Positions 13,685 to 53,021 of a stretch of 64,000 nucleotides of DNA are shown here, one piece after another. The translations under genes and the position numbers were made by a program. Origin of the DNA: Neotamlana sargassicola (GTDB lineage Bacteria; Bacteroidota; Bacteroidia; Flavobacteriales; Flavobacteriaceae); contig NZ_JAJAPX010000001.1 of NCBI RefSeq assembly GCF_020523965.1, positions 62,001 to 126,000 of the forward strand, in the 5' to 3' direction. The notes under the pieces were generated by a model, which did no database searches, was not told where the DNA came from, and worked only from the letters and a program-made list of their open reading frames with translations. Numbering within the stretch: position 1 is the stretch's first letter; every line of letters starts with the position of its first letter.

Positions 13685-13802
13685 TTTTCTAATTTTTTAG
13701 TTTAAAATTTAAATTAAAAAGCCAAAACGTACCACTATGGTATGCTTATTAGAAAAATGTTATTAAGATTGTGCGCGTAATTACAGAAAGTAATTTACGT
13801 TA

Positions 13803-13913
13803 GTTATCTATCTAAAAACAAAAATTTTAGTAGAATGTAGCACCTTCCCCGAAAAATCGGGAGGTTGCTAAGGCTTCAGCGGGTCTATTCCCTCCACCTT
13901 TCTTGATAACATT
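13803..13913 (-). promoter_or_regulatory. SAM-I (S-box) riboswitch upstream of metY
   Basis: On the minus strand the leader reads TTATCAAGAAAGGTGGAGGG, then AATAGACCCGCTGAAGCCT, TAGCAACC, a hairpin CCCGATTTTTCGGG, and GGTGCTACATTC. These are the conserved blocks of the S-box aptamer (P1/P2 region, kink-turn, J3/4, P3 and P4) in the right order. GTTATC (13910-13905) can pair with GATAAC (13808-13803) as P1. The 323-base gap between metY and the next gene is largely explained by it. It should lower expression of metY, and possibly of the fusion gene and metZ, when SAM is plentiful. Confidence 0.93.
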
Positions 13914-26596: not shown

Positions 26597-26722
26597 GGCG
26601 TTACCCCCAAGGGGTCGCGCTTTCCGCTATATCTTTTTTATTGGTTCTCGATACATTTTGCTCATACTTCACAAAACACTCGAACTAACATAAAAAAGGA
26701 TGCCGCTGCAATCGCTAACGCA
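26597..26722. repeat. Intergenic repeat with GGCGTTA/TAACGC ends (copy B)
   Basis: It runs from GGCGTTACCC to CGCTAACGC. The interior carries GGGGTCGCGCTTTCCGCTATA, a T-rich stretch, then ATTGGTTCTCGATACATTTT, ACTCGAAC and AAAAAAGGATGCCGCT. Copy C at 32277-32420 is nearly identical over the whole length except for an extra palindrome. It lies between argC and proC within the operon. Confidence 0.82.
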
Positions 26723-26777
26723 CCACTGTTATGTGATACTGAAACACTGAAACCAAAAATTCAGCATAGCAGCATGT

Positions 26778-44240: not shown

Positions 44241-45503
44241 TTACACTAAAAACTGAAATAAATCGGGTTTATTGTTTAAATAATCACCATAGAAGTTTCT
44301 ACTTTTCATTTTAGAAATAAGTGGTTCTAAATCTTTTGAAGCTTTTAATTGAATACCAACTACTGCCGAACCATTTTCTCTGTTTGTTTTTTTGGCATAC
44401 TCAAAAAAGGTAATATCGTCCTCTGGCCCAAGAATATCTACTACAAATTCTCGTAATGCCCCAGCACGCTGTGGAAACTTTACTATAAAATAATGCTTTA
44501 AATTAGCATATAGTAAAGCACGTTCTTTAATTTCTGGAGTTCTGGTTATATCGTTATTGCTTCCACTAACAATACAAACTACGTTTTTACCTCTAATTTC
44601 TTCAGCATAAAAATCGAGTGCAGAAATACTTAAAGCTCCAGCAGGCTCAACAACAATAGCGTCTTTATTATAAAGCTCTAAAATAGTTTCGCAAACCTTA
44701 CCTTCCGGAACCGTTATCATGTTATGCAAATTTTCTTTACAAATAGAAAACGTTAGGTCGCCAACGCGTTTTACTGCTGCACCATCAATAAACTTATCTA
44801 TATAATCTAACTCCGTATTTTTATTATTTTTTATGGAAGTCTTCATAGAAGGTGCGCCTTCAGGCTCAACTCCTATAATTTTAGTATTTGGTGATAATTT
44901 TTTAAATACTGAAGATAATCCAGACGCTAAACCACCTCCGCCAACTGCAAGAAACACATAATCTATTGGTTGTGTTGCTTGTTCTAAAATTTCAAGCCCA
45001 ATGGTTCCTTGACCTTCAATAACCTTTGGATCGTTAAACGGATGAATAAAGGTTTTTTGTTTTTCGTTACACTCTTTTGTTGCTGCTGCATTAGCATCAT
45101 CAAACGTATCTCCAATTAACTTAATTTCAATAAAATCTTCGCCAAACATTTTTACCTGCTCAACCTTTTGCTTGGGAGTTGGAGCTGGCATAAAAATGGT
45201 GCCATGAATTTTTAACAACTTACAAGACAAGGCCACACCTTGCGCATGATTACCAGCACTTGCACAAACTACCCCGTTTTTAGATTGCTCCAGAGTTAAC
45301 GAACTTATTTTATTGTAAGCACCACGAATTTTATACGAGCGTACCTGTTGTAAATCTTCGCGCTTAAGCATAATATTAGCTTGAAACTGTTTTGAATATC
45401 TTAAACTCGGACTTAAAGGCGTAATTGCCGATACTTTTTTAATATTGGCTGCTGCTTGTTTAATGTTTTCTAAACTTGGAAAATAAGTGGTTTCCGTACT
45501 CAT
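44241..45503 (-). CDS. ilvA: Threonine dehydratase (threonine ammonia-lyase), biosynthetic
   Basis: The 420-residue fold-type II PLP enzyme has the lysine motif YKIRGAYNKI (PLP Lys about residue 57), VCASAGNHAQGVA, AVGGGGLASGLSSVF and CIVSGSNNDI. A C-terminal ACT-like segment (about 335-420) may bind isoleucine; only one such unit is present, against two in E. coli IlvA. It makes 2-oxobutyrate for isoleucine. It lies downstream of ilvC but behind a strong terminator, so expression may be partly uncoupled from the ilv operon. Confidence 0.92.
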   Translation of the reverse strand: MSTETTYFPSLENIKQAAANIKKVSAITPLSPSLRYSKQFQANIMLKREDLQQVRSYKIRGAYNKISSLTLEQSKNGVVCASAGNHAQGVALSCKLLKIHGTIFMPAPTPKQKVEQVKMFGEDFIEIKLIGDTFDDANAAATKECNEKQKTFIHPFNDPKVIEGQGTIGLEILEQATQPIDYVFLAVGGGGLASGLSSVFKKLSPNTKIIGVEPEGAPSMKTSIKNNKNTELDYIDKFIDGAAVKRVGDLTFSICKENLHNMITVPEGKVCETILELYNKDAIVVEPAGALSISALDFYAEEIRGKNVVCIVSGSNNDITRTPEIKERALLYANLKHYFIVKFPQRAGALREFVVDILGPEDDITFFEYAKKTNRENGSAVVGIQLKASKDLEPLISKMKSRNFYGDYLNNKPDLFQFLV

Positions 45504-45602: not shown

Positions 45603-47078
45603 TTACACGATTGGTTTCATAGCCGTCATAGATGCTCTTAAGAATTCACCAATTTTTTCAACTGGATGCTCTCTTAATGCTTTATTTACAGCAATTAATT
45701 TAGCATTATCTACACCTTCACCATTATCTTTTGCGAATGGCTTACCAATTACGTCTGTATCAATTTTAGTCATGAAATCTGCTAATAAAGGCTTACAAGC
45801 ATGATCGAATAAATAACATCCGTATTCTGCAGTATCAGAAATAACACTGTTCATTTCGTATAATTTACGTCTTGCAATAGTGTTTGCAATAAGTGGTGTT
45901 TCGTGTAACGACTCGTAATAAGCAGACTCGTCGATGATTCCAGAATCTGTCATGGCTTCAAAAGCTAATTCAACACCAGCTTTAACCATAGCTACCATTA
46001 ATACACCGTTATCGTAAAATTCTTGTTCAGAAATTTCAACATCTCCAGCTGGAGTTTTTTCGAATGCAGTTTCAGCAGTTTCAGCTCTCCATCCTAATAG
46101 TTTCTCATCTCCGTTTGCCCAATCTTCCATCATTCCGCTAGAGAAACGTCCTTCCATAATATCATCCATGTGTTTTTGGAATAACGGACGCATGATATCT
46201 TTTAATTCTTCAGATAATTCAAACGCTTTAATTTTAGCTGGATTAGATAATCTATCCATCATGTTTGTAATACCACCGTATTTTAAACCTTCGGTAATAG
46301 TTTCCCAACCAAATTGAATTAATTTAGAAGCATAACCAGCATCAATTCCTTTTTCAATCATTTTATCGAAACAAAGAATAGATCCTGTTTGTAATAAACC
46401 ACATAAAATGGTTTGCTCTCCCATTAAATCACTTTTTACTTCAGCAACAAAAGATGACTCTAAAACACCTGCTCTATCTCCACCAGTTGCAGCTGCATAG
46501 GCTTTAGCTTGCGCCCAACCTTTTCCTTCTGGATCGTTTTCTGGGTGAACCGCAATTAATGTTGGCACACCAAAACCTCTTTTATATTCTTCGCGAACCT
46601 CTGAACCTGGACACTTAGGCGCTACCATAATTACAGTTAAATCTTCACGAATTTGAGTTCCTTCTTCAACAATATTAAAACCATGAGAATAGCTTAACGT
46701 AGCTCCTTTTTTCATTAAAGGCATAACAGCGTTAACAACATTTGTATGTTGCTTATCTGGAGTTAAGTTTAAAACTAAATCGGCAGTTGGAATTAGCTCT
46801 TCGTAAGTACCAACAGTAAATCCGTTTTCTGTAGCATTTACAAAAGACTGACGCTTTTCTTCGATAGCTTTTGGTCTTAAGGCATAAGAAATATCTAATC
46901 CAGAATCTCTCATGTTTAATCCTTGGTTAAGTCCCTGAGCACCGCAACCAACAATAACAATTTTCTTTCCTTTTAATGCTTCTACACCATCTTCAAACTC
47001 TGAAGCGTCCATAAATCTACACTTCGATAATTGATCGATTTTATCTCTTAATGATAGTGTGTTAAAATAATTTCCCAT
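45603..47078 (-). CDS. ilvC: Ketol-acid reductoisomerase, class II (long)
   Basis: The 491-residue protein has [31 protein letters not shown] (NADPH-binding), [26 protein letters not shown], and two copies of the knotted helical domain with metal-binding acidic residues ([33 protein letters not shown]). Length over 480 marks class II. It isomerises and reduces acetohydroxy acids in valine, isoleucine and leucine synthesis. It is the last gene of the ilv operon, 27 bases after ilvN. Confidence 0.96.
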
Positions 47079-47105: not shown

Positions 47106-47636
47106 TTAATTATTAAATGCATCAAGCATTTCTGTTATCTTCATTTCATCTTTTGTTACAGCTATGCGCCCTGAACGTACAAACTGCATAATACCAAATA
47201 CGTTTAAATCGCGACGTAATGCTTCAATTTCATGACGTCGTCCAGATTTTTCTAAAACAAAAAATTCTTTGTTTACCGTTACAATTCTGGTGTTACTTTC
47301 TTTAATTATATTTTGAATTTGAGGTTCTTCAAAAAGTAATTCAGACTTTATTTTAAACATACAAGACTCTGTAAAAATAGTTTGGTCTTCGGTATGATAA
47401 TAGGCTTTAATTACTTCAATTTGTTTTTCAAATTGCCCTACAATTTTTTTAGCTTGATCTTCGCAAATATTTACTACAATAACAAAACGATTAACCCCTT
47501 CAATCTCAGATTGTGAAGTTGTTAAGCTCTCTATATTGATATGTCTGCGTTGAAAAATTGCCGAAACACGATTTAATAACCCGATGTTATTTTCGGTATA
47601 TATTGAAATGGTATATGATTTTATATCTTCACTCAT
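47106..47636 (-). CDS. ilvN: Acetolactate synthase small (regulatory) subunit
   Basis: The 176-residue protein has the N-terminal ACT domain (TISIYTENNIGLLNRVSAIFQRRHINIESLTTS, with ENxxGxLxRV-type ligand loop). The C-terminal small-subunit domain includes ILEVNKEFFVLEKSGRRHEIEALRRDL-like sequence. It activates the large subunit and confers feedback control, probably by valine. It is 12 bases after ilvB. Confidence 0.93.
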   Translation of the reverse strand: MSEDIKSYTISIYTENNIGLLNRVSAIFQRRHINIESLTTSQSEIEGVNRFVIVVNICEDQAKKIVGQFEKQIEVIKAYYHTEDQTIFTESCMFKIKSELLFEEPQIQNIIKESNTRIVTVNKEFFVLEKSGRRHEIEALRRDLNVFGIMQFVRSGRIAVTKDEMKITEMLDAFNN

Positions 47637-47648
47637 TTTTATAAGATT

Positions 47649-49382
47649 TTAGCTTAAACGAACATCTGAAACTGATGCTCCGGTTGGAATCATTGGAAAC
47701 ACGTTATCTTCTTTCTCAACACACACTTCTAAGAAATACGATTTTTTAGAAGCAATCATTTCCTTAACAGCATCGGCCAATTCTTCTCGTTTTACCACTT
47801 TGCGAGCTTCAATATGATAACCTTTTGCAATAGTAACAAAATCTGGGTTTACCATTTCGGTTGAAGCATAACGCTTATCGAAAAACAGTTGTTGCCATTG
47901 GCGCACCATTCCTAAAAACTCATTGTTTAATACTACAATTTTTACAGGTACTTGTTGCTGAAAAATGGTACCTAACTCTTGAATATTCATTTGGTAACCA
48001 CCATCGCCTATTATGGCTACAACTTCACGATCTGGCGCTGCCATTTTCGCACCAATAGCTGCGGGTAAGGCAAACCCCATAGTTCCTAAACCACCAGAGG
48101 TAATATTACTTTTAGTAACATTAAAATCGGCATAACGACAAGCAATCATTTGATGCTGACCAACATCTGATACAATAGCTGCTTTACCTTCAGACTCGAT
48201 ATTAATTTGTTTTAATACCTCGCCCATTGTTAAGCCTTCTTTTTCCGGATGAATATCGTGTTTGATAACTTTTTCGAACTCTATTTGGTATAAATCTTTA
48301 AATTCTTGCAACCAAGATTCATGTTTTGTTTCGTTTAAAAGTGGTAAAAGTTGAGATAAACTATCTTTAGCATCGCCAATTACAGCTACATCGGTTTTTA
48401 CATTTTTATCAATTTCTGCAGGATCTATATCGAAATGTACAATTTTAGCCTGTTTTGCATACGTTGCTAAATTACCCGTAACACGATCGTCGAAACGCAT
48501 ACCAATGGCTATTAATACATCGCACTCGTTAGTTAATTTATTAGGTGCATAATTACCATGCATACCAACCATACCAATATTTAAAGGATGTGATGTTGGT
48601 ATGGCAGAAGCCCCCAAAATAGTCCAAGCAGAAGGAATTCCTGCTTTTTCCATAACCGCTTTAAGTTCGTTTTCGGCTTCACCTAAAATAACACCTTGCC
48701 CCCAAACAATCATTGGTTTTTTAGCATTATTTATTAAATCTGCAGCTGCTTTTACGGCTTCGGGTTTTGTTTTTGGCACCGCAATATAACTACGAATACC
48801 AGTACATTTTTTATATTGAAAATCAAGTTCTGAAACTTGAGCATCTTTAGTAATATCGATTAAAACTGGTCCTGGACGACCACTTTTAGCAATATAAAAA
48901 GCTTTTGCTAAAACTTCAGGTATTTCTGAAGCTTTAGTAACTTGGCAATTCCATTTTGTTACTGGTGTTGAAATACCAACAATATCGGTTTCTTGAAAAG
49001 CATCGCTACCTAATAAGTGTGAAAACACTTGCCCTGTAATACAAACTAACGGTGTTGAATCTATTTGAGCATCTGCAATTCCGGTTACTAAATTAGTAGC
49101 TCCAGGTCCAGATGTTGCCATAGCGACACCAACTTTACCAGAAATACGCGCGTAACCTTGAGCCGCATGAGCTGCTCCCTGCTCGTGACGTGTAAGTACG
49201 TGATGAATTTTTCCTTGATATTTATAAATTTCGTCGTAAACTGGCATAATTGCACCTCCAGGATATCCGTAAAGTACATCTACACCTTCTTCTATTAAGC
49301 ACCTTATAATGGCTTCGCTTCCTGTGATGCGTTCTGTTTTATTTGCCACGCTCTTATTTTGTTTTATTGTTTGTGTATCCAT
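47649..49382 (-). CDS. ilvB: Acetolactate synthase large (catalytic) subunit
   Basis: The 577-residue ThDP enzyme has the catalytic Glu region GYPGGAIMPVYDEIY and TRHEQGAAHAAQGYARISGKVG. The ThDP/Mg motif is GDGGYQMNIQELGTIFQQQVPVKIVVLNN (GDG...NN). It condenses pyruvate with pyruvate or 2-oxobutyrate. It is the second gene of the operon, behind ilvD; the 56-base gap contains a dyad repeat. Length and motifs are normal. Confidence 0.95.
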   Translation of the reverse strand: MDTQTIKQNKSVANKTERITGSEAIIRCLIEEGVDVLYGYPGGAIMPVYDEIYKYQGKIHHVLTRHEQGAAHAAQGYARISGKVGVAMATSGPGATNLVTGIADAQIDSTPLVCITGQVFSHLLGSDAFQETDIVGISTPVTKWNCQVTKASEIPEVLAKAFYIAKSGRPGPVLIDITKDAQVSELDFQYKKCTGIRSYIAVPKTKPEAVKAAADLINNAKKPMIVWGQGVILGEAENELKAVMEKAGIPSAWTILGASAIPTSHPLNIGMVGMHGNYAPNKLTNECDVLIAIGMRFDDRVTGNLATYAKQAKIVHFDIDPAEIDKNVKTDVAVIGDAKDSLSQLLPLLNETKHESWLQEFKDLYQIEFEKVIKHDIHPEKEGLTMGEVLKQINIESEGKAAIVSDVGQHQMIACRYADFNVTKSNITSGGLGTMGFALPAAIGAKMAAPDREVVAIIGDGGYQMNIQELGTIFQQQVPVKIVVLNNEFLGMVRQWQQLFFDKRYASTEMVNPDFVTIAKGYHIEARKVVKREELADAVKEMIASKKSYFLEVCVEKEDNVFPMIPTGASVSDVRLS

Positions 49383-49438: not shown

Positions 49439-51124
49439 TTACGCGTCGGTTACACAGCCTTTTGAAGCCGATGCTACCGATTTTGCGTACTTGTATAAAA
49501 TTCCTTTTTTATGTTTTAATTCTGGAGCTTTCCATTGTGCTTTTCTTTCAGCTAATTCTTCATCTGAAATTAAAACGTTAATAGAATTGTCTTCTGCACT
49601 AATTCTAATTTTGTCTCCAGTTTTTAACAAACCTATTGTACCGCCCGTTTGTGCTTCTGGTGTAATATGACCAACCACAAAACCATGAGTACCTCCAGAG
49701 AAACGTCCATCGGTAATTAATGCTACAGATTTACCTAAACCTGCTCCCATAATTAATGATGTTGGCTTAAGCATTTCTGGCATACCTGGACCTCCTTTTG
49801 GACCCACATAGCGGATAACGACGACATCGCCACGCTCTACTTCGCCATTAGAAATACCTGTATTTGCCGCTTGTTCGCCATTGTAAACCACAGCTTTTCC
49901 TTCAAAAACCAATCCTTCTTTTCCTGATATTTTTGCTACAGCTCCTTCTGACGCTAAGTTTCCATAAAGTATTTGTAAGTTTCCTGAAGATTTTAAAGCC
50001 TTATCTGTTGGAAAAATTACATCTTGACTTTCCTCCTCAAACTCTAATGGCTCTACATCTTTTAAATTTTCGGCTAAAGTTTTTCCTGTAACTGTCATGC
50101 AATCTCCGTGCAGATAACCATTATCTAAAAGATATTTCATTACTGCTGGTGTACCACCAATACCGTGAACATCTTCCATTAGGTATTTTCCACTAGGTTT
50201 TAAATCTGCTATTAAAGGAGTTCTGTCGCTTACACGCTGAAAATCTTCTAAAGTAAAATCGATATCGGCAGCATGTGCAATAGCTAAAAAGTGAAGCACC
50301 GCATTGGTAGATCCGCCTAAAGCATTTACTAAAGCAATGGCATTTTCTATAGATTTTTTAGAAATAATATCTAATGGTTTTAAATCTAGCTCTAACAAAT
50401 TTTTAATCGCTCTCGCATGGCGCTCGCTTTCTGATAATTTATTAGGATTTTCTGCAGGAATAGATGAGTTATAAGGTAAAGCAAAGCCCATACACTCTAT
50501 TGCCGAAGCCATAGTATTTGCAGTGTACATACCACCACATGCTCCTGCTCCTGGAATAGCACGACGAATAATTTCTCTATATTCGTCTTCTTCAATTTCA
50601 CCAGCTACCTTTTGTCCTAAAGCTTCAAAAGCAGAAACAATATTAAGTTTTCTCCCTTTATAGTTTCCAGAAGCAATAGTTCCACCATACATCATAATAG
50701 ACGGACGATTTAATCGTAACATGGCTATTACAGCTCCAGGCATATTTTTATCACAGCCAACAATAGAAATTAACGCATCGTAACTTTGTGCATTCATTAC
50801 AGTTTCTATAGAATCGGCAATAATATCGCGAGAAGCCAAAGAATAGTTCATTCCTGATGTTCCCATTGATATACCATCACTAACCCCTATTGTGTTAAAC
50901 CCTAAACCGACTAAGTTAGCAATTTTACATTCTAATTTCACCTCATCTTTAAGCCTGTTAAGATGCATATTACATGGGTTACCATCGTAACCTGTACTTG
51001 CAATACCTACTTGGGCTTTGTTCATGTCTTCATCTGTTAATCCAACAGCATACAACATGGCTTGTGATGCAGGTTGCGATTCGTCTTGCGTTAACCTTTT
51101 ACTGTGTTTATTTAATTCTTTCAT
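49439..51124 (-). CDS. ilvD: Dihydroxy-acid dehydratase
   Basis: The 561-residue IlvD/Edd-family protein has [14 protein letters not shown] and [14 protein letters not shown] (cluster cysteines) with the third cysteine in [14 protein letters not shown]. It also has [19 protein letters not shown] near the C-terminus. It dehydrates dihydroxy acids to 2-oxoisovalerate and its methyl homologue using an Fe-S cluster. It is the first structural gene of the operon. A 314-base leader upstream contains the ILV-rich peptide and attenuator. Confidence 0.95.
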
Positions 51125-51372
51125 TGTTTGTTTACAGAAAATTTTATCTTTTATCTTAATTTTTTAGCAAATATTTAATTTTTAATTCCTCATTTTAAAT
51201 TTCACTTAAAAAAAGACATAATAAGCTTCGAAATTAGTTTTTTAAGCTGTTCTAGCTATTTTTCTATCTTTTTTTAGTTTAAATCCACAACCCCAATTAA
51301 ACACATAAAAAGCTGTTTTACAGATCTTTAAATGATTTTTTTTATGATGTTCAAAACCTATAAAAAAACGCA

Positions 51373-51400
51373 TAAAAAAAACCTTCCGTTTCGGGAAGGC
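51373..51400 (-). terminator. Attenuator terminator in the ilv leader
   Basis: On the minus strand CCTTCC-CGAAAC-GGAAGG, preceded by G and followed by TTTTTTTT, is a compact rho-independent terminator. It lies 39 bases after the stop of the ILV-rich leader peptide and about 250 bases before ilvD, the expected place for transcription attenuation. Confidence 0.88.
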
Positions 51401-51438: not shown

Positions 51439-51498
51439 TCATTGTGAAAAAATCACAACGACAATAACTAAAACGATATTTAAAAGGTTTTTTCTCAT
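51439..51498 (-). CDS. ilv operon leader peptide (19 codons, ILV-rich)
   Basis: A minus-strand ATG at 51498 opens a short frame encoding MRKNLLNIVLVIVVVIFSQ and a TGA stop at 51441-51439. Eleven of nineteen residues are Ile, Leu or Val, eleven of them within twelve codons, exactly what a branched-chain attenuation peptide needs. A stem TTGTGA/TCACAA lies in its last codons, and a strong terminator follows. When charged Ile, Leu or Val tRNA is scarce, the ribosome would stall and prevent the terminator. A possible promoter with -7-like AATCTTTG lies about 15 bases upstream. Confidence 0.85.
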   Translation of the reverse strand: MRKNLLNIVLVIVVVIFSQ

Positions 51499-51567
51499 TT
51501 TCACTTAACAAAGATTTATAAATTATTTTAAAGTTCCAATTTTTTCATAAAAAAAAGAAAAATGGTT

Positions 51568-51595: not shown

Positions 51596-51608
51596 CGCCA
51601 CAAATAAC

Positions 51609-51715
51609 AGAGGAAAGATTTGACTGATTGCAACCTCTATTCTATTTGAACTTTTCAGAAAAACATAAAGATACTGAAACAAGTTCAGCATGAATAAAAA
51701 AATGCTAAAGGCAGT
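51609..51715 (+). promoter_or_regulatory. SAM-II-like riboswitch in the metK leader
   Basis: P1 is AGAGG (51609-51613) with CCTCT (51634-51638), enclosing GATTTGACTGATTGCAA. A distal strand AATGCTAAAGGCAGT (51701-51715) supplies the pseudoknot: ACTG (51623-51626) pairs with CAGT (51712-51715). The blocks GATTT...TTGCAA and GCTAAA...GG are the conserved parts of SAM-II. The connecting loop is unusually long (about 60 bases) and holds a hairpin CTGAA-ACAAG-TTCAG (51674-51688). A further hairpin TTGACG/CGTCAA (51726-51742) precedes the start codon. SAM binding should repress metK. Confidence 0.8.
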
Positions 51716-51767
51716 GTTAACTACCTTGACGTTTTCCGTCAAATCGATTTCTATTAAAATATATTTT

Positions 51768-53021
51768 ATGGCTTATTTATTTACTTCAGAAAGTGTTTCT
51801 GAAGGCCACCCAGATAAGGTCGCAGACCAAATTAGTGATGCTTTAATTGATAATTTTTTAGCATTTGATGTAGACTCGAAAGTAGCTTGCGAAACTCTTG
51901 TAACTACTGGACAAGTAGTACTTGCAGGAGAAGTGCGCTCAAAAACTTATTTAGATGTTCAGCAAATTGCTCGCGACACCATTAATAAAATTGGTTACAC
52001 CAAAGGCGAATATATGTTTGATGGTAATTCTTGTGGTGTTTTATCTGCAATTCATGAACAAAGTGATGAAATTAACCAAGGTGTAGACCGCGGAAGCAAA
52101 GAGCTTCAAGGTGCTGGCGACCAAGGTATGATGTTTGGTTACGCCACCAACGAAACCGAGAATTTTATGCCTTTGGCACTAGATTTATCGCACCGCATTT
52201 TAACCGAACTTGCCGAACTACGAAGAGAAAACAAAGACATTACTTATTTAAGACCAGACAGTAAAAGTCAAGTAACTATTGAATATAGTGATGATAATAT
52301 TCCGCAACGTATTGATGCCATTGTAGTTTCTACACAACACGACGAATTTGATGAAGATGAAGCAATGCTTGCTAAAATTAGAAGAGATATTATTGAAATA
52401 TTAATACCTCGTGTAGTAGCAAAATTACCAGAAGCAACACAGGCTTTATTTAACAACGACATTACATACCATATTAACCCAACAGGCAAGTTTGTTATAG
52501 GTGGACCACATGGCGATACTGGCTTAACTGGACGAAAAATTATTGTAGACACTTACGGTGGTAAAGGCGCCCATGGTGGCGGTGCATTTTCTGGTAAAGA
52601 CCCGAGTAAAGTTGACCGTAGTGCTGCTTATGCCACACGTCATATTGCTAAAAACTTGGTTGCTGCTGGTGTTGCTGACGAAGTTTTAGTTCAAGTAAGT
52701 TATGCCATTGGAGTTGTAGAGCCTATGGGAATTTTTATTGACACTTATGGTACTTGCCCTTTTAACATGACCGATGGTGAAATTGCTCAAAAAGTAAGTG
52801 AAATTTTTGATATGCGACCATTTGCTATTGAAGAACGCTTAAAACTACGCTCACCAATGTATAGCGAAACCGCCGCATACGGACACATGGGACGAAAAAA
52901 TGAAACTGTTACCAAAACCTTTAATCAACCCAACGGAGAAAGCATAACTCTTGATGTTGAACTATTTACATGGGAAAAATTAGATTATGTAGATAAGGTT
53001 AAAACTGCCTTTAATTTATAA
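51768..53021 (+). CDS. metK: S-adenosylmethionine synthase
   Basis: The 417-residue protein starts at ATG 51768: [26 protein letters not shown] longer frame from 51690 exists, but its first 26 residues come from riboswitch sequence and are rejected. Signatures are [12 protein letters not shown] (ATP-binding) and [20 protein letters not shown] (P-loop-like). It makes SAM from methionine and ATP. It stands alone between its riboswitch and a terminator and is divergent from ilvD. Its product is the ligand for both riboswitches in this window. Confidence 0.96.

Follow-up and report, generated by a model that had tools for sequence, protein, structure and literature searches.

The Ile/Val-rich reading frame upstream of ilvD in Neotamlana sargassicola is very probably the leader of a classical ribosome-mediated transcription attenuator which, judging from its sequence and from fold modeling, would sense charged tRNA-Ile and tRNA-Val and act on ilvD-ilvB-ilvN-ilvC-ilvA. 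It was found in the window, the whole 64,000-nucleotide stretch of DNA analyzed here (Table 1). Both a frame rich in cognate codons and an intrinsic terminator before the first gene are present in the sequence, covariation indicates a leader helix that excludes the antiterminator, and the cognate codons are placed, in computed folds, such that segment 2 is free when the ribosome stalls and covered when it stands at the stop codon.

Table 1. Attenuator, promoter elements and genes of the ilv locus in the window.
Feature	Position	Strand	Basis
-7 box TTTG of the distal promoter P1 (putative)	51509..51512	-	Motif and position; TTG at 51539-51537
Leader frame MRKNLLNIVLVIVVVIFSQ, Ile/Val-rich, stop codon TGA	51439..51498	-	Sequence; like frames before ilvD in 87/199 loci
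Segment 1 AATATCGTT, codons for N-I-V	51472..51480	-	Partner of segment 2
Inner hairpin of the leader helix, TTGTGA loop TCACAA	51442..51458	-	Sequence and covariation
Segment 2 GGGAACGGTATT, directly past the stop codon	51425..51436	-	Mimic of segment 4; partner of segment 1 or 3
Segment 3 GCCTTCCC, 5' arm of the terminator	51393..51400	-	Sequence
Segment 4 (GGAAGGT) and U tract, 3' arm of the terminator	51374..51387	-	Sequence
Conserved DNA element TTGAACATCATA..CTG-N5-CAG..TGGATTTA in the attenuator-ilvD interval	51280..51354	-	Core in 87/199 loci
-7 box TAATTTCG of the probable proximal promoter P2	51229..51236	-	Motif and spacing; predicted start near 51224
ilvD, dihydroxy-acid dehydratase	49439..51124	-	TIGR00110, 720.6 bits
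ilvB, acetolactate synthase large subunit	47649..49382	-	TIGR00118, 710.2 bits
ilvN, acetolactate synthase small subunit	47106..47636	-	TIGR00119, 90.2 bits
ilvC, ketol-acid reductoisomerase	45603..47078	-	NF003557, 932.2 bits
ilvA, threonine ammonia-lyase	44241..45503	-	NF006390, 632 bits

The first-pass annotation had placed the frame in front of an ilvDBNC operon. Those four genes were named as such with NCBIfam, but ilvA also belongs to the operon, whose order on the minus strand is ilvD-ilvB-ilvN-ilvC-ilvA and in which a leu gene is absent; the five gene names thus indicate an operon for the synthesis of isoleucine and valine. Along the minus strand, the TTTG box is followed by 10 bases, the 19-codon frame, 38 bases, the terminator (51400-51374) and, some 250 bases on, ilvD at 51124. 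The neighbor of the operon on the plus strand is the divergent metK, located behind a SAM-II riboswitch. As the minus strand has no upstream gene that ends here, the terminator can act only inside the ilv transcript. The SAM-II riboswitch occupies 51604-51718 of the plus strand, and the longest metK frame (51690-53021) begins within it, so that the true metK start is probably 51768. A SAM-I riboswitch (13801-13912) and a Flavo-1 RNA (26609-26734), both on the minus strand and at the Rfam gathering score, were also observed in the window.

Translation of the leader gave the 19-codon frame with 11 Ile, Leu or Val residues that had been described at first pass (3 Ile, 5 Val and 3 Leu), and the sequence likewise contains the internal stem (TTGTGA/TCACAA plus flanks) and the terminator, GCCTTCC-CGAAAC-GGAAGG-T8, whose stem starts at 51400, 39 bases from the last base of the stop codon. 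The 131-nt leader folds 5 SD more strongly than its dinucleotide shuffles (z -5.09; 0/200), and covariance model R1, which contains the window sequence, matches 51504-51371 at 130.9 bits. The stop codon TGA, followed by an in-frame TAG, comes one codon earlier than in three mates of the genus. The description as an Ile/Leu/Val leader had to be narrowed: the frame is indeed rich in Ile and Val, but Leu is unenriched, accounting for approximately 7% of the residues in leaders of types A and B (the two lineages compared below), which leaves Ile and Val as the residues most likely to be sensed; on that figure, sensing of Leu was rejected. GTC represents 114 of the 271 Val codons in leaders from many genomes, compared with 4 of 152 in the operon of the window's single genome. 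Codon differences between the window leader and those of gap-free relatives comprised 51 synonymous changes, 153 within I/L/V/M/F and 152 of other kinds, indicating that the leader peptide itself drifts. Frame statistics on alignment A1 (see below) are circular, because its rows had been picked by their frame.

The upstream regions of 199 ilvD loci were surveyed, comprising 80 named loci, four from the window's genus, counting its own, and 115 from a draw of 149 Flavobacteriaceae genomes representing 148 genera, 118 of which had ilvD. One genome with a partial ilvD (G010) was excluded, and two pairs of duplicate upstreams (L013/L149 and L019/L171) left 197 distinct sequences. A strict module was defined as an ATG frame of 11-32 codons with at least six Ile/Leu/Val in ten codons, and a terminator within 80 bases. 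Such modules were found in 87 of the 199 loci (99 modules; 86/197 distinct upstreams), including 55 of the 115 drawn-genome loci; several loci from Flavobacterium species are among those with a module. Among the first 84 loci, 32 carried a strict module, compared with 2/84 on the opposite strand and 0/840 dinucleotide shuffles, and nine other residue sets used instead of ILV retrieved 0-5 of the 199 loci. In a control with real sequence, 8/496 stretches from elsewhere in the named loci passed, all located 1.0-1.5 kb upstream of ilvD. These eight, which were kept as control hits, resemble genuine leaders of a gene preceding ilvD, by analogy with L275 and L276, where a leader at 1.0-1.5 kb from ilvD lies before an aminotransferase-like gene (named by eye) that precedes ilvD. 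Nine more loci failed the strict test and matched model R1 or R2, making the module counts lower bounds, and about half of the related genera examined carry the same device before ilvD. Orientation was unsure in four loci; L195, read in the correct orientation, has no module, and the module of L049 is probably false (2:3 value 0). A search of the 149 genomes with R1 returned 45 hits at E values of 6.2e-5 or lower, each of them upstream of ilvD on its strand, 42 within about 0.43 kb of the gene and 3 at about 1.2 kb (positions compared by hand); 32 of them are sequences in the model and 13 are independent. Ten weaker hits (38.9-46.1 bits; L281, L293-L301) yielded no convincing leader, several of them being plain gene-end terminators.

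The segments of the attenuator were compared across the family. Segment 1 corresponds to the codons for N-I-(I/V)-S, segment 2, past the stop codon, reads GGAATGGTAT in many type A relatives, and segments 3 and 4 are the terminator arms CCTTCC and GGAAGG. In the type B lineage, the terminator is CCTGTATC/GATACAGG and segment 2 is GATACAG or near; segment 2 mimics segment 4 and changes along with it between the two types. Type B segment 2 scores 17.4 against type B segment 3 and 10.5 against that of type A (means over different loci), the contrast being smaller for type A segment 2 (12.9 with type A and 11.7 with type B segment 3). Alignment A1, from which R1 was built, retained 37 of 59 type A modules after a length and spacing filter, the exclusion of nine loci by hand and the removal of duplicates, and alignment A2 retained 23 of 25 type B modules (one outlier and one duplicate out). 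In the 37 type A sequences, helix 1:2 and the inner hairpin had 84.9% of cells paired, with both-sided changes at 10/15 pairs. Together they showed 35 both-sided cells, compared with 10.1 in shuffles (0/500 as high) and no more than 16 in slid versions. No excess covariation was detected for the 2:3 helix within type A (4 both-sided cells, 3.7 expected). The coding conservation among relatives proposed as a check on the original reading was thus assessed, and frame, Ile/Val run and terminator proved to be conserved; the attenuation reading survived, with these three recurring before ilvD in the family, a leader helix that covaries and helices that compete.

To place the ribosome in this competition, each leader was folded up to segment 3 with everything behind the leading edge of the ribosome blocked. 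Over the 99 modules, computed 2:3 pairing averaged 0.80 for a ribosome halfway along the Ile/Leu/Val run and 0.16 for one at the stop codon, whereas 495 dinucleotide shuffles gave 0.40 and 0.30; pairing fell by more than 0.5 from the first position to the second in 76% of the modules and 8% of the shuffles. In type A, the Ile/Leu/Val fraction is 0.73 at codon 4 before the stop but 0.27 at codon 3, and in type B it is 0.84 at codon 5 but 0.28 at codon 4. This end of the Ile/Val run, 3-4 codons before the stop, is approximately where computed 2:3 pairing begins to fall. For the window leader, the values were 0.83 stalled, 0.30 at the stop and 0.80 without a ribosome (means without a ribosome: 0.49 over the 99 modules and 0.46 in shuffles). 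With the value of 0.80, strong termination would not be expected for the untranslated RNA in this simple equilibrium model.

From a frame, terminator, helices, conservation and geometry established from sequence or by computation, we infer that P1 drives transcription, that the leader is translated and that the switch responds to starvation. The transcript would begin just upstream of the leader frame and translation would be immediate. When Ile- or Val-tRNA runs short, the ribosome would stall at codons 8-16, covering segment 1 and leaving segment 2 free to pair with segment 3 as an antiterminator, so that the polymerase would continue into ilvD. With ample charged tRNA, the ribosome would reach the stop codon and cover segment 2, and segments 3 and 4 would form the terminator.

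Two promoters may serve the operon. Upstream of the leader, TTTG starts 15-12 bases before the ATG in 36 of the 99 modules, compared with a mean of 3.1 and a maximum of 9 in shuffles. The consensus is TAnnTTTG at -12 to -5 (PMC9723704); the -7 box of P1 deviates from it, its TA being off the consensus distance, and the predicted start lies near 51504. Downstream of the attenuator, a conserved 75-bp element has the pattern TTGAAYATSATA, YTG-N5-CAR, TGAATTTA. Its core was present in 87/199 loci versus 3/995 single-letter shuffles, the equality with the number of module loci being a coincidence: 51 of these loci have a strict module and 36 do not, nine of the 36 matching R1 or R2 and 27 neither. 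The motif TAnnTT[TC]G is found 115-119 bases downstream of the element's first base at 66 sites, and it occurs once elsewhere (87 loci, beyond 70 bases); strict TAnnTTTG accounts for 28 of the 66 boxes. The full pattern was found once in the window's genome (here) and once in G002, and is absent from G001 and G003, whose elements deviate from it. An interpretation of the element as structured RNA was rejected, as RNAalifold predicted no pair in 82 sequences, and no covariation was found between its CTG/CAG arms (TTG-CAG 17, TTG-CAA 13, CTG-CAG 13, CTG-CAA 13, rest other or none). Element and box together probably constitute a promoter, P2, with an operator, at a distance of about 100 bases from ilvD; lying past the terminator, it would, on motif and spacing, add unattenuated transcripts that bypass the attenuator. 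Given this probable P2 between attenuator and ilvD, attenuation may govern only part of the transcription.

Twelve of the 199 loci contain two modules, each with its own terminator (L011, L023, L033, L037, L165, L172, L175, L184, L189, L198, L201 and L209). The second ATG lies 9-19 bases past the first terminator in ten of the twelve, and in the ten loci that combine both types the order is always A then B. In five tandems (L033, L175, L198, L201 and L209), 2:3 pairing of the second module stays at 0.49-0.61 at the stop codon, so that, in the fold model, it makes no good switch there. An AND gate with one leader reading Ile and the other Val was unsupported, as the Ile/Val shares are 0.341/0.114 in first and 0.373/0.105 in second leaders; with the same residues in both, the series would sharpen rather than combine signals. 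In L015, two more leader-like frames were observed 1.0-1.5 kb upstream of ilvD. No second attenuator or remnant was found in the window, where R2 recovered the module already described at 38.4 bits, all other matches scoring 22.2 bits at most, and R1 gave one strong match only, the next reaching 25.8 bits. Decayed forms were found in relatives: a stretch of L005 (2219-2333; R1 58.3 bits) retains the terminator behind a shortened leader without most Ile/Val codons, and the close relatives L006 and L013 have no intact leader upstream of ilvD and retain the proximal element.

Leaders for other amino acids were found in the same genus. In 4/4 genomes, a Trp leader with WWW stands upstream of a chorismate-binding gene presumed to be trpE, one for His with HHH at hisG, and one for Phe/Tyr with FFYFFF at the gene for prephenate dehydratase (loci L117-L120, L089-L092 and L242-L245, respectively). 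The terminator test was passed by all four Trp and all four Phe/Tyr loci and by one of the four His loci, the other three showing by eye a hairpin and T run in the same place. Rfam family RF01692 matches the Trp leader in both copies scanned (two loci of the genus), and the one His and the one Phe locus scanned had no match at gathering score, such matches being confined to the Trp loci. Among the weaker R1 hits, an Ile-only leader, MIKSNNIIIAIISIIAIQQ, was found before an ilvA-like gene in one genome (L277, G114), and a Thr leader, MKHIITNTTTTTTGTS, precedes thrA-, thrB- and thrC-like genes in another (L275, G136), the genes being named by eye in both cases; the thrA starts of the window's genus lie outside the stretches examined. 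Three ILV hits were located near HMGL genes (L093, L102 and L103). The metabolic logic by which Ile-only, Thr, Trp, His and Phe/Tyr leaders precede matching genes supports the attenuator reading.

The R1 search also retrieved, in 20/149 genomes including the window's own, a leader that shares the three helices and carries seven to ten codons for Asn. The copy of the window's genome, MKNNNNNNNFNNSKF (L268, contig C39:1-7500, 6037-6154, minus strand), precedes a gatC-like gene, gatA and gatB::aspS. A model made from the 20 leaders scores them at 108-133 bits and all else at 54.4 or less; at E 0.01 it hits 106/149 genomes, those beyond the 20 being weak hits, and of five such loci inspected one held a Trp-type leader and four held nothing convincing. 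Inspection by eye showed the first two frames behind the Asn leader in 19 of the 20, the contig of L279 ending after the first. In L269, of the same genus, the leader is followed by an 88-residue GatC-like protein (22 bits, below cut-off), and gatA scores 437 bits (below the cut-off of 481) and gatB 397 bits (above cut-off). The window's genome encodes a fusion of GatB with a complete AspRS, a protein of 1112 residues (GatB 13-478, AspRS 518-1110). AsnRS was above cut-off in 148/149 genomes. Genomes with the Asn leader have six matches to the AsnRS model (one has five) and most others four, and ten genomes with six matches have no strong Asn-leader hit; six matches are consistent with an extra AspRS in the Asn-leader genomes. 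Some organisms have been described that possess AsnRS and yet form Asn on its tRNA through GatCAB (PMC4206432). In the fold model, 2:3 pairing of the Asn leader was 0.91 stalled on Asn, 0.14 at the stop and 0.90 without a ribosome, all three values being for native sequence. Among the open-licence PMC papers listed, no title dealt with an Asn leader peptide or GatCAB attenuation, nor with a GatB-AspRS fusion in Bacteroidetes. We lean, with some reserve, toward a single Flavobacteriaceae RNA design (leader helix, segment-2 decoy and GCCTTCC/GGAAGGC-type terminator) whose codon run is swapped per operon: Ile/Val upstream of ilvD or ilvE-ilvD, Ile alone for ilvA, Thr for thrA, and 7-10 Asn for gatC-gatA-gatB::aspS. 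There, the leader would monitor Asn-tRNA and regulate the formation of Asn on its tRNA. In several genera, two Ile/Val switches would act in series, multiplying and sharpening the response.

Several alternatives were weighed against the attenuator. Short hydrophobic frames are common in AT-rich DNA, so that one might stand by chance before an ordinary terminator, an explanation rendered extremely improbable by the scarcity of modules in shuffles (0/840) and on the opposite strand (2/84), by recurrence across the family together with covariation, and by the lack of a same-strand gene end upstream. It is just as hard to credit that the frame encodes a functional hydrophobic peptide, membrane-bound or type I toxin-like, whose place before ilvD would be secondary. 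Many small membrane peptides are similarly short and hydrophobic, and the product, with 19-20 residues, is strongly hydrophobic; however, the residues track the operon rather than hydrophobicity, leaders of like layout for Asn, Thr, Trp, His and Phe precede matching genes, the leader codons sit in a covarying helix, and the peptide drifts in length and at its C-terminus. Riboswitches, too, combine a terminator with alternative folds, but a metabolite riboswitch or T-box in place of a translated leader is most unlikely, since what is conserved is a frame containing cognate codons and neither type has an Rfam match on the ilvD strand of the metK-ilvD interval, even at a permissive threshold, SAM-II lying on the other strand before metK.

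More weight, although still well short of an even chance, is given to an attenuator that is real but minor, with P2 and a regulator of the 75-bp element carrying most of the control. Element and box occur at fixed spacing in most of the 87 loci, the full element pattern is found only once in the window's genome, and 36 element loci lack a strict module, 27 of them matching neither model. Against this, the attenuator is retained in most close relatives and doubled in 12 loci, and both regulator and start site are putative. Counted against the attenuator itself were the lack of 2:3 covariation in type A, the ribosome-free value of 0.80 in the window, the drifting peptide, the imperfect P1 box, P2, and the close relatives without an intact leader.

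The enterobacterial attenuators of ilvGMEDA and ilvBN, with Ile/Val-rich leaders and 1:2, 2:3 and 3:4 helices, control Ile-Val biosynthesis. The predicted layout here is the same; phylum and promoter type differ. A parallel in position is Rli60 of the Listeria monocytogenes ilv-leu operon (PMC5864092), a ribosome-mediated system with a branched-chain-codon leader frame directly before ilvD, in which start-codon, RBS and terminator mutants act as predicted. Rli60 belongs to a Firmicute, has a 13-residue leader and is subject to CodY on top; unlike it, the leader described here, known from sequence, belongs to Flavobacteriaceae, has 19 residues without Leu enrichment, is accompanied by a probable proximal promoter and occurs in tandem in some relatives. 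At the Ile/Val leader of the window, no Rfam leader family reached gathering score (Phe_leader, 29 bits versus the 55 needed). In Bacteroidota, the RF01692 Bacteroid-trp leader (PMC2864571) is a leader-peptide RNA present in the same genus that senses Trp. In the same family, structured 5' regions of amino-acid operons have been described in F. psychrophilum, with pheA and hisG named and ilv not named in the available text (PMC9723704); that 2021 work reports "strong clues" from transcript data for leader-peptide attenuation before such operons, and translation starts without Shine-Dalgarno sites in flavobacteria. Hence the first-pass statement that these systems are poorly documented in flavobacteria holds to a lesser degree than implied, given the RF01692 matches in the genus and those clues. 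According to the available text of a 2010 survey, no case had been shown outside Proteobacteria and Actinobacteria except ermC and the survey's own Firmicute finds (PMC2965389); a further survey is Lopatovskaya 2010 (cited in PMC4833913). For tandems, the precedent is Salmonella mgtCBR, where two short-frame attenuators in one leader RNA respond additively to ATP and proline, termed a singular instance of attenuators in tandem that answer to different signals (PMC3641672); unlike that case, both leaders are Ile/Val-rich in the 12 tandem loci. No paper on tandem or ilv attenuation was found in open-licence PMC.

Leader-peptide attenuation is already on record in Bacteroidota for Trp through RF01692, and the Ile/Val leader appears to join a known kind, with strong comparative support from sequence. 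What goes beyond the first-pass annotation is the probable bypass promoter, the putative tandem attenuators and a candidate poly-Asn leader of the same design, which, on GatCAB/AspRS genes, would address a sensing task without a described attenuator in the open-licence PMC searched. Ribosome-mediated attenuation is a likely mode of control for isoleucine and valine synthesis across a large bacterial family, and its natural variants, single, tandem, decayed and codon-swapped, offer tests of how such switches evolve.
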